Part shown: piece after piece, positions 2,441 through 62,040 of the stretch
Numbering within the stretch: position 1 is the first letter of the stretch
Layout: the number at the start of each line of letters is the position of its first letter
Source: Sphingomonas sp. PAMC26645
Lineage (GTDB): Bacteria > Pseudomonadota > Alphaproteobacteria > Sphingomonadales > Sphingomonadaceae
NCBI RefSeq assembly: GCF_004795835.1
Contig: NZ_CP039249.1
Span: 3,385,001-3,449,000 of the forward strand
Reading direction: 5' to 3'
Length of the DNA: 64,000 nucleotides
The notes under the pieces: model-generated
The model's input: only the letters and a program-made list of their open reading frames with translations
What the model was told of the DNA's origin: nothing
The model's database searches: none
Program-made: the position numbers and the translations under genes

Positions 2441-2529
2441 CGCCGGACGCGTCGATCGGTCCGGCGACTGAGGGCACCGGCTTTACCGGTGCTCCTCGTG
2501 CTCAGATTGCTCATGAGGAGGATTTGGAT
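2441..2529 (+). promoter_or_regulatory. ROSE-like RNA thermometer in the hsp20 leader
   Basis: The leader folds into a perfect 8-bp hairpin (CGCCGGAC/GTCCGGCG, 2441-2466) and a 7-bp hairpin (GCACCGG/CCGGTGC, 2474-2492). A UUGCU element at 2507-2511 faces the Shine-Dalgarno AGGAGG at 2516-2521. UUGCU pairing with AGGA through a G-G mismatch is the hallmark of ROSE thermometers, which repress small heat-shock genes at low temperature in alphaproteobacteria. The hairpins and the motif are seen; thermosensing is inferred. Confidence 0.75.
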
Positions 2530-3015
2530 ATGAGGACGAACTTCGACTTCACGCCTTACCGTCGTTCCACGGTTGGTTTCGACCGGCTGTTCGACTTGCT
2601 GGAAGCGACCGCGCGGACCGAAACGGCCGATGGCTATCCGCCGTTCGATATCGAACGCGAGAGCGAGGACAGCTATCAGATCACGCTCGCCGTCGCCGGG
2701 TTTCGCCCCGACGACATCGAGATCGTCGCGCAGAACAACCAGTTGACGGTCAGCGGGCGCAAGCCCGACGAACGCGACGATGGCCGCTTCGTCCACCGCG
2801 GGATCGCCACCCGTGCGTTCGAGCGCCGCTTCCAGCTTGCCGACTTCGTGCAGGTCCAGAATGCGAGCTTCGACAACGGCCTGCTGCGCATCGCGCTGAA
2901 GCGCGAAATCCCCGAGGCGATGAAGCCGCGTCGGATCGAGATCAACGGCGCTGCTGCCAATGATCGCAGCGGCGATCGTCTCGAAGACAAGCAGGCGGAA
3001 CGCTCCGCCGCGTAA
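2530..3015 (+). CDS. Hsp20 / alpha-crystallin small heat-shock protein
   Basis: A 161-residue ATP-independent holdase chaperone of the IbpA type. It starts MRTNFDFTPYRR. The alpha-crystallin domain spans roughly residues 35-135 and contains YPPFDIERE, the AGFRPDDIEI strand, LTVSGRK, the FERRFQLAD segment and the late motif NGLLRIALKRE. ATG at 2530 was chosen because AGGAGG lies 8 bp upstream and because homology begins there, although the frame stays open further upstream. The ROSE-like leader predicts induction by heat at the translation level. A strong terminator follows the gene. Confidence 0.95.
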   Translation: MRTNFDFTPYRRSTVGFDRLFDLLEATARTETADGYPPFDIERESEDSYQITLAVAGFRPDDIEIVAQNNQLTVSGRKPDERDDGRFVHRGIATRAFERRFQLADFVQVQNASFDNGLLRIALKREIPEAMKPRRIEINGAAANDRSGDRLEDKQAERSAA

Positions 3016-57922: not shown

Positions 57923-60607
<2,685 letters not shown>

Positions 60608-60695: not shown

Positions 60696-60778
60696 CGTCA
60701 TCCCAGCGAAAGCTGGGATATTCCCGTGAGGCCCACGTCGCCCACCACGAGGATATCCCAGCGTTCGCTGGGATGACG
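60696..60778. repeat. Paired palindromic repeat, family F
   Basis: CGTCATCCCAGCGAAAGCTGGGATA faces ATATCCCAGCGTTCGCTGGGATGACG across about 30 bp. Each arm is itself a hairpin. Only one copy is seen in this window. Confidence 0.82.
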
Positions 60779-60847
60779 TGTGTTGGCGGATGGTGAAGGA
60801 CGATCTGCGCGAGCCGACGAAGGCCAAGCGCACCCGCTCCCAGAACG

Positions 60848-60990
60848 AAAAAAGGCGGGGCGATCGCAAGGATCGCCCCGTAGTTCAGGGAGAAGACCGG
60901 GACAGGGGAGACCCGGTCAAATCGCCGTCCACAGGGGGAGAGGGAGCGGCGACGCATCCCCCTTCGCCCCGATATGTTGCAGGGATATGT
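60848..60990 (-). ncRNA. Candidate small RNA with C-rich loops and intrinsic terminator
   Basis: On the minus strand three hairpins follow one another. The first is TCGCCG/CGGCGA, with loop CTCCCTCTCCCCCTGTGGA. The second is a perfect 7-bp stem GACCGGG/CCCGGTC, with loop TCTCCCCTGT. The third is a perfect 9-bp terminator stem GGGGCGATC/GATCGCCCC (60857-60879) followed by GCCTTTTTT. CTCCCT also lies single-stranded before the terminator. C-rich loops facing ribosome binding sites recall alphaproteobacterial sRNAs of the suhB/mmgR and alpha-r14 type, but no family is claimed. The 5' end is a guess. It may instead be the 3' end of the permease-mtnP mRNA. Confidence 0.5.
60857..60879 (-). terminator. 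Strong intrinsic terminator (minus strand)
   Basis: A perfect 9-bp GC-rich stem with a 5-nt loop, followed on the minus strand by GCC and six T residues at 60848-60853. Confidence 0.85.
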
Positions 60991-61041
60991 CGAACACGGC
61001 GAATGACGAACTTTTCACCTGACGAAGGCAGAGATCCGAAT

Positions 61042-61162
61042 CCTCCCCCGCCAGGGGGAGGTGGCAGGCGCCAGCCTGACGGAGGGGGAGGATAGGGCAA
61101 ACCGCTGTTGCGTATCCTCCCCCTCCGTCACCTTCGGCGACACCTCCCCCTAGCGGGGGAGG
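61042..61162. repeat. Paired palindromic repeat, family C copy 2
   Basis: CCTCCCCCGCCAGGGGGAGG plus GACGGAGGGGGAGGAT faces ATCCTCCCCCTCCGTC plus CCTCCCCCTAGCGGGGGAGG. It ends 9 bp before the mtnP stop codon. Confidence 0.85.
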
Positions 61163-61170
61163 ACTGCAGT

Positions 61171-62040
61171 TCAGACTGAAAGCGCCCGCCCCGCCACGGC
61201 ATCCAGCTTCGCCACCAGCACCGGATCGCGAGCCTCCCGCGCCGTAATGATCGCGCTATCCAGGCACGTATCGATCGGCGAAGCCTCCCGCTCCACCGAC
61301 AACGCGCGCAGCAACGCCATCACCATCGCCCGAGCCTTCGCCGCATTCGCACCAAGCTGCGCCACGACCTGCGCGACATCGACGCCCACCTCGTCCTCCC
61401 GCCAGCAATCGTAATCGGTCACCATGCCGACCAGCGCGTACGGAAGCTCCGCCTCCCGCGCGAGCTTCGCCTCGGGCATCGCGGTCATGCCGATCACGTC
61501 GCAACCCCATTGACGGTACAGCCGGCTTTCCGCGCGCGTCGAAAATTGCGGGCCTTCCATCGCGAGATAGATGCCGCGGTCGTCGACCTGCGCGCCCGCC
61601 TCCCGCGCGGCGTTGGCGGCATAGCGCGATAGGCGCGGGCAGACCGGGTCCGCCATCGAGACGTGCGCGACAAGGCCGGTGCCGAAGAAGCTCGACGGCC
61701 GTCCCTTGGTACGATCGATGAACTGGTCGACCACGGTGAAACTCCCCGGCGGCCGCTGTTCGACCAGCGACCCGACCGACGACACCGCCAACACGTCCGT
61801 TACGCCCAGCCGCTTCAACGCATCGATATTCGCCCGCGCGTTCAGCTCCGACGGCGAGATCCGATGCCCCCGCCCATGCCGCGGAAGGAACGCCACCCCG
61901 ACATGCCCGACTCGCCCGGTATAGATCGCATCGGACGGCTCGCCCCAAGGCGTCTCCACCGTCTGCCAGCGCCCGTCCTCAATTCCGTCGACCGCGTACA
62001 ACCCCGAGCCGCCGATGATTCCGATCGTCCAGCCGCTCAT
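61171..62040 (-). CDS. mtnP: S-methyl-5'-thioadenosine phosphorylase
   Basis: A 289-residue purine phosphorylase releasing adenine and methylthioribose-1-phosphate from MTA. The phosphate-binding motif is IGIIGGSGLY. PRHGRGHRISPSELN, YLAMEGPQFSTRAESRLYRQ, GMTAMPEAKLAREAELPYAL and the substrate segment VTDYDCWRED also match. MTI phosphorylase is the alternative. The start ATG overlaps the permease stop (ATGA), so the two are translationally coupled. Confidence 0.92.
   Translation of the reverse strand: MSGWTIGIIGGSGLYAVDGIEDGRWQTVETPWGEPSDAIYTGRVGHVGVAFLPRHGRGHRISPSELNARANIDALKRLGVTDVLAVSSVGSLVEQRPPGSFTVVDQFIDRTKGRPSSFFGTGLVAHVSMADPVCPRLSRYAANAAREAGAQVDDRGIYLAMEGPQFSTRAESRLYRQWGCDVIGMTAMPEAKLAREAELPYALVGMVTDYDCWREDEVGVDVAQVVAQLGANAAKARAMVMALLRALSVEREASPIDTCLDSAIITAREARDPVLVAKLDAVAGRALSV

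Follow-up and report, generated by a model that had tools for sequence, protein, structure and literature searches.

A minus-strand RNA of about 108 nt, predicted at positions 60955-60848 of a 64,000-nt stretch of DNA from Sphingomonas sp. PAMC26645 (RefSeq assembly GCF_004795835.1, contig NZ_CP039249.1, positions 3,385,001 to 3,449,000; hereafter the window), is very probably a real and so far unlisted Sphingomonas small RNA (sRNA). The reading that we favour, as likely although well short of certain, is that of a trans-acting sRNA with its own promoter, a Sphingomonas paralogue of the alpha-r8 (suhB/MmgR/Sis) RNAs whose C-rich sites would repress several mRNAs at their ribosome binding sites. 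In the open-access literature searched we found no description of this RNA, and little on sphingomonad sRNAs beyond SuhB of Sphingopyxis.

A predicted compact RNA with two C-rich hairpins and a terminator

A preliminary description of this locus had proposed, from the sequence alone, two hairpins with C-rich loops, an exposed stretch and an intrinsic terminator on the minus strand; reading of the sequence together with folding calculations confirmed this arrangement. In hairpin 1 (60921..60953), GUCGCCG (60953-60947) pairs with CGGCGAU (60927-60921), with CUCCCUCUCCCCCUGU inside. In hairpin 2 (60895..60918), which is also seen in the alignment of homologs, GACCGGG (60918-60912) pairs with CCCGGUC (60901-60895) around the loop UCUCCCCUGU. 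An exposed linker, UUCUCCCUGAACUA (60881..60894), which aligns with the alpha-r8 core in the suhB alignment, leads into the terminator (60848..60880), a 10-bp stem with a CUUGC loop (CGGGGCGAUC-CUUGC-GAUCGCCCCG) followed by CC and six U. Our covariance model R1 matches the unit, whose 5′ end is a predicted one, at 60849-60955 with 122.3 bits, a score to be read with the window sequence itself being one of the six that built the model.

The 60955-60848 RNA has a minimum free energy of -50.6 kcal/mol, compared with -30.9 ± 2.9 kcal/mol for shuffled sequences (z = -6.7), and none of 200 shuffles folded as well. A larger piece (60840-61000) folds into a different minimum with a long-range stem (z = -3.6); this alternative was set aside because the shorter unit has the stronger z score and covaries. 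A terminator scan recovered the terminator, but in the surrounding 2-kb region such sites are also to be expected by chance (two found, 1.2 expected).

Pairing is conserved across Sphingomonas

A BLAST search of 61 genomes, that of the window included, returned three close copies (92-94%) together with several more distant ones; 60 of the 61 gave some match at E <= 10, a tally that includes short chance matches, and the best rows alone were used. The sequence TCCCTGAACTACGGGGC is common to twelve loci whose hairpin stems differ from one another. On a sequence-only MAFFT alignment of six homologs (A3), which was not fitted to any model and from which R1 was built, RNAalifold predicted 28 pairs, nine of them compensated. 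At E <= 0.01, R1 matches 106 of 201 sampled genus genomes (99 of the 180 of good quality), with one match each in 98 of the 106, and finds nothing in the other 95; at E <= 1e-6, a hand count from the table gives 76 of 201. Four loci, L100, L102, L103 and L131 (genomes G156, G191, G114 and G064), each carry two sRNA copies on the same strand, separated by about 0.1 to 2.2 kb.

The better-scoring R1 matches and the BLAST loci were brought together in a larger alignment (A4; 78 copies from 74 loci, 74 of them distinct), from which L069 and L081, in other genomes, and the weaker R1 matches were left out. Among the 74 distinct copies of A4, which unlike A3 was fitted to the model so that its pair counts lean towards structure, 97.6% of pair cells are paired, and both partners change in 20 of the 26 pairs; covariation is 0.604, as against 0.183 ± 0.009 after shuffling and at most 0.117 for slid partners. 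Both-side changes affect six of the seven pairs of the hairpin 1 outer helix (96.3% of cells paired), all seven of hairpin 2 (98.4%) and five of the ten in the terminator stem (99.1%), whose outer pairs are nearly invariant within the genus and so say little there. All 26 pairs have both-side changes in a wider set of 24 copies (A5), which includes at least three rows (L147, L148 and L154) resembling chance matches.

The fraction of copies bearing the commonest letter is 0.96 in the linker (mean of 11 columns), 0.85 and 0.75 in the loops of hairpins 1 and 2, and 0.73 and 0.56 in their stems. CCC is present inside hairpin 1 in 75 of 78 copies (missing in three) and inside hairpin 2 in 76 (missing in two). 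Variable stems combined with a near-constant linker and conserved pairing are characteristic of a structured RNA that exposes its functional sites. Taken together, the compensated pairs, the genus-wide model matches and the A4 covariation support the sRNA identity that had been proposed for the locus, and the A4 pairing excludes the lack of conserved pairing in relatives that had been named as evidence against it.

An exact 20-base pattern spanning linker and terminator, which misses copies differing within it, matched 75 stretches in a search of one genome from each of 84,980 species. By hand count, Sphingomonas appears in 70 of the 75 titles, with species such as S. melonis, S. faeni, S. aerolata, S. 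phyllosphaerae, S. sanguinis, S. pruni and S. paucimobilis. R2, a covariance model made from Sphingomonas copies only, confirmed 74 of the 75, the missed record being titled Diapherotrites. One record titled Arthrobacter sp. TPD3018 (L280) carries the RNA at 78.9 bits, and is perhaps a mislabelled assembly.

Probable kinship with alpha-r8

An Rfam covariance search reached no gathering cut-off on this RNA, and none of 20 member loci reaches any Rfam cut-off. The nearest family is suhB/mmgR (RF00519, alpha-r8), whose full model gives this RNA 30.0 bits, short of the cut-off of 41 (E = 6.5e-5 over 123 bases and 5.3e-4 over the genome); orthologs in G018, G024 and G034 score 28.7, 28.7 and 32.2 bits. 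The suhB model also gives matches at E <= 2 in 14 of 14 control genomes, over the cut-off in one, so that a weak suhB match by itself means little. For alpha-r14 (RF02344) the score is 18.4 bits against a cut-off of 58.8, and the CCUCCUCCC loops of that family are absent from all three hairpins, which carry CUCCCUCUCCCCCUGU, UCUCCCCUGU and CUUGC instead. The two families to which the preliminary description had likened the RNA were thus apt leads, suhB/mmgR being the nearest of all, but formal membership holds for neither; since both cut-offs are missed, we rejected an outright filing under either name.

R2 was in turn searched against wider samples. In a class-level sample, it matched 14 of 289 genomes, that of the window included; six of the 11 non-own loci fetched, drawn from four families, are suhB over the cut-off at the same place, and all six have an FGase gene within the 3-kb locus (identified by Pfam for L149 and L157). 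FGase is the neighbour described for alpha-r8 in most species, with one copy at that site and extra copies elsewhere, according to the part of the source drawn on here (PMC12559287). In a family-level sample, 25 of 298 genomes matched, two of them Sphingomonas; three of ten loci from other genera (L140, L145 and L146) share the three-hairpin shape and have an FGase-like ORF nearby (33-36% identity), and two (L147 and L148) look unrelated. A phylum-level sample gave five matches in 299 genomes, one of them outside the class at 34.4 bits, which indicates that scores near 34 can be chance.

The same source describes alpha-r8 with a weak hairpin upstream of the core and a single-stranded 10-mer, UUUCCUCCCU (PMC12559287). 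The corresponding UCUUCUCCCU of the window RNA is identical at eight of ten positions (by hand), with the core CUCCCU kept, and a rho-independent terminator, another alpha-r8 feature, lies downstream of the core; a hairpin also precedes the core here, but it is strong and covarying. No FGase gene lies beside the window copy, whose neighbours are acnA and mtnP.

The genome of the window further holds two short suhB copies that exceed the Rfam cut-off (49.9 and 44.2 bits), L160 and L161 (G000:C1:451677-451755 and 1428979-1429052, minus), with the common core UCAGGCAUCCUCUCCUAAAAACUUUCA; one lies near a LysR-type ORF and the other near an ORF with NusG domains. R2 scores one of them at 14.8 bits and returns no match for the other. 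The genome also has another RNA of three hairpins that resembles alpha-r8 (L163, G000:C1:1409783-1409864, plus strand); it carries GUCCCCCCC in hairpin 1 and the linker UCCUCCCUGAACCU, adjoins a Na+/H+ exchanger gene, and reaches 27.1 bits with the suhB model and 30.8 with R2.

As far as sequence comparison reaches, the window RNA is probably a three-hairpin relative of alpha-r8, a paralogue without formal membership. It is unlikely, although deserving of consideration, that a real sRNA of separate descent acquired its CUCCCU and terminator by convergence. Such an origin would fit the sub-threshold suhB score, the differing neighbours, the two strong hairpins in place of the weak one described for alpha-r8 (PMC12559287, in the part cited), and the near failure of R2 to see the short suhB copies of the window's own genome. 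It fits poorly, however, with the ability of the suhB and R2 models each to find the other group's members across families, with a stretch around CUCCCUgaACU that both groups carry at the same position, flanked by hairpin and terminator, and with the three loci from other genera in which the three-hairpin shape and an FGase-like ORF occur together.

Genomic context and a candidate promoter

The nearest gene on the strand of the RNA is mtnP, which ends at 61171, leaving 181 bases to 60990 and 216 to the probable 5′ end at about 60955; inverted repeats at 61041-61163 lie between, much as the preliminary description had stated in placing this gene some 180 bp upstream behind a repeat. On the opposite strand, acnA ends at 60607. 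At 44 of the 74 loci the RNA and an MFS gene are divergent, about 78-396 bp apart by tblastn alignment ends, and at 18 (the window's group) the RNA lies tail-to-tail with acnA, nine of these with mtnP upstream; in the flanks fetched for the other 12, neither MFS gene nor acnA was found. For the MFS gene of L104, the nearest NCBIfam model is that of metabolite/H+ symporters (TIGR00883; 391.6 bits, below the cut-off of 443.45), followed by shikimate, ProP and tricarballylate transporters. Beyond the MFS gene, many loci have what appear to be rsmD- and uvrD-like genes.

The genome of the window keeps a symporter relative (62% identical) beside an rsmD-like gene, with no RNA there, and no leftover sRNA copy was detected beside the symporter in this genome or five relatives (L179-L184; best score 11.0 bits). 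From the separation of RNA and symporter in the window's lineage we infer a move, as judged by gene neighbourhoods.

Two inverted-repeat elements, at 61041-61163 (123 bases) and 60696-60778, flank the sRNA. The core of the former, CCTCCCCC/GGGGGAGG, is matched 15 times across 464 kb of this genome, similar repeats precede the symporter both here and in relatives of the window's genome, and the G-rich arms of the element are complementary to the sRNA loops. Far from the locus, positions 2443-2536 (plus strand) match the ROSE RNA thermometer (RF00435, 58.9 bits), at an ORF that resembles a small heat-shock protein gene.

Comparison of upstream regions revealed a conserved block, CGACATATCCCTGCAACAT (60974..60992, minus), which is a promoter or operator candidate. 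Of 76 distinct upstreams, 61 contain GCRACA (mean 3.5 and maximum 10 after shuffling); 62 have GCRAYA, and in 49 of these its last occurrence begins 25-26 nt ahead of the model start. The whole block, GACAYA..GCAAY, is present in 41 of 76 distinct upstreams, against a shuffled mean of 0.0; counted by copy, it accompanies 18 of 18 acnA-linked, 25 of 48 symporter-linked and none of 12 other copies. Its retention in two contexts argues for an RNA-specific promoter; a promoter scan of the region between mtnP and the RNA found no sigma-70 consensus. Conservation suggests that the RNA starts near 60955-60960 and that 60974-60992 is an upstream signal, not part of the transcript. The separate 5′ end envisaged by the preliminary description is favoured by the conserved block, while its position would shift out of 60974-60992. 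In the 4.28-Mb genome, CGACATATCCCTGCAACAT has a single exact match; with two mismatches it finds three further places, no more than a reversed control (three), and was rejected as a regulon marker.

These data bear on whether the structure is simply the 3′ end of the mtnP mRNA, with no separate RNA, which we regard as very improbable. Although mtnP lies upstream on the same strand in nine of 74 loci, the window included, and the missing sigma-70 consensus would agree with read-through, mtnP is absent from the fetched flanks of 65 loci and the upstream gene is divergent in 44; the upstream block, moreover, is found in both contexts, and the 123-base element separates mtnP from the RNA. As between an independent sRNA and read-through from mtnP, a choice raised in the preliminary description, the two-context block and the 65 flanks lacking the gene make read-through unlikely. 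A cis-acting acnA element (3′ UTR, antisense terminator or attenuator) would suit the 18 tail-to-tail loci, but is more doubtful still, as the flanks fetched for the remaining 56 showed no acnA and the U-tract lies on the strand opposite acnA.

A 91-codon ORF (60957-60682, minus, ATG at 60957) overlaps the RNA. Among the 18 acnA-linked copies, which are 106, 107 or 108 nt long, its frame is open in 11 and interrupted by a stop in seven, and the start position holds ATG in one, GTG in 12 and neither in five. That this ORF encodes a small protein is scarcely credible, for the open frames and the possible GTG starts are outweighed by the interrupted frames, the rarity of ATG, the length variation and, in A4, substitutions that follow base pairing; coding at the locus is very unlikely on these sequence grounds, and the earlier judgement that it holds no credible protein is borne out.

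A model for action in trans and its candidate targets

In the model that we favour, a promoter just upstream of 60955 would drive minus-strand transcription of the ~108-nt RNA, which its own terminator would end. The transcript, a putative Sphingomonas paralogue of alpha-r8, would keep the exposed CUCCCU core before the terminator and add to it the strong hairpin 2 and the upstream hairpin 1, each with a C-rich loop. Unpaired C-rich sites would pair in trans with G-rich ribosome binding sites, most likely as in alpha-r8 relatives, probably with the help of Hfq bound to the U-tail (the six-U tail is the one possible Hfq feature seen), and lower the translation of several mRNAs, plausibly those of uptake and catabolic genes. 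Transcription, alpha-r8 descent, Hfq binding, the targets and the direction of regulation are all features that we infer. Binding to G-rich ribosome binding sites is to be expected by analogy with alpha-r8 and alpha-r14 RNAs; SuhB of Sphingopyxis is described as binding the thnR 5′ UTR in an Hfq-dependent manner and as following growth rate, in the part of the report cited (PMC6563040).

We searched for complementary sites in windows before the start codons of 235 genes, called by our own script from 464 kb of this genome. Complementary 6-mers were found in 20 windows for loop 1 (controls 4 and 5), 14 for loop 2 (4 and 4) and 10 for the linker (4-5), and 7-mers in six, four and one, respectively (controls 0-2; for the linker, 2 and 2). 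Shuffled versions did as well: 6-mer means were 20.8, 10.6 and 8.4 for loop 1, loop 2 and linker, and 175, 71 and 103 of 300 shuffles were as good or better. The complementarity of the loops to ribosome binding sites thus appears to be a matter of composition only, and a specific anti-Shine-Dalgarno code was rejected.

The pattern ACAGGGGR-N4-12-ATG occurs 21 times in this genome (once when reversed), 17 times in G158 (2) and 16 in G034 (3), but the reversed pattern is a weak control because purine-rich words before ATG should exceed it anyway. Of the 33 matches in G158 and G034, 30 became loci, and in a comparison by printed motifs alone three motifs are identical across the three genomes; one of them opens a 17-codon ORF (L189, G000) and is probably no gene start. 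The candidate target ORFs appear to resemble a TonB-type receptor, a glycosidase, a P450 and MreC, and we treat them as leads only. The divergent symporter was discarded as a direct target, no G-rich site being evident by eye before its start.

We also put forward, as a tentative extension, a multivalent and Sphingomonas-specific sRNA in which two further C-rich loops, aimed at ribosome binding sites in the manner of alpha-r14, join the alpha-r8 core within an uptake module that includes the divergent symporter. In its commonest context such an RNA might, possibly, share a regulatory region with an MHS-type metabolite symporter, the window's lineage having it beside acnA instead. Were the three sites to act at once, the RNA could serve as a broad brake on catabolic mRNAs, not as a repressor of one target. 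Its presence in about half of the sampled genus genomes, its stable shape and its two-context upstream block make it a clean test object. Alpha-r8 relatives of Caulobacter, Sinorhizobium and Sphingopyxis are described as having a role in carbon metabolism, in the parts of the two reports cited (PMC12559287, PMC6563040), and the RNA could show whether that role extends to Sphingomonas. It could likewise show how alpha-r8, known for one exposed seed, comes to resemble the several-loop layout of alpha-r14.

Comparison with known sRNA systems

With the alpha-r8 RNAs (RF00519 suhB/MmgR; SisA-D of Caulobacter; SuhB of Sphingopyxis granuli TFA, described as 61 nt, PMC6563040), the window RNA shares an exposed CUCCCU core, a hairpin upstream of it, a strong terminator and the occurrence of several related RNAs per genome, and R2, built from Sphingomonas copies, picks up canonical FGase-linked relatives. 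It differs in having UCUUCUCCCU in place of UUUCCUCCCU, a strong hairpin 2, C-rich loops and no FGase neighbour. Among other Rfam families, SorY and SorX match weakly over the 3′ part (18.8 and 14.6 bits against cut-offs of 111 and 46.6), and ar7 weakly over the whole RNA (19.8 against 60).

The overall architecture also recalls alpha-r14. Multi-hairpin RNAs with CCUCCUCCC-type loops have been described (PMC3927594, in the part cited), and the alpha-r14 member NfeR1 of Sinorhizobium meliloti is reported, in the part of the source drawn on here, to silence ntrBC through CCUCCUCCC sites and to be Hfq-independent (PMC10746234). NfeR1 and the window RNA are similar in length (123 and ~108 nt) and both combine three hairpins, variable stems and conserved C-rich loops; in the window RNA, however, the loops are not CCUCCUCCC, and the third hairpin is the terminator, with its CUUGC loop.
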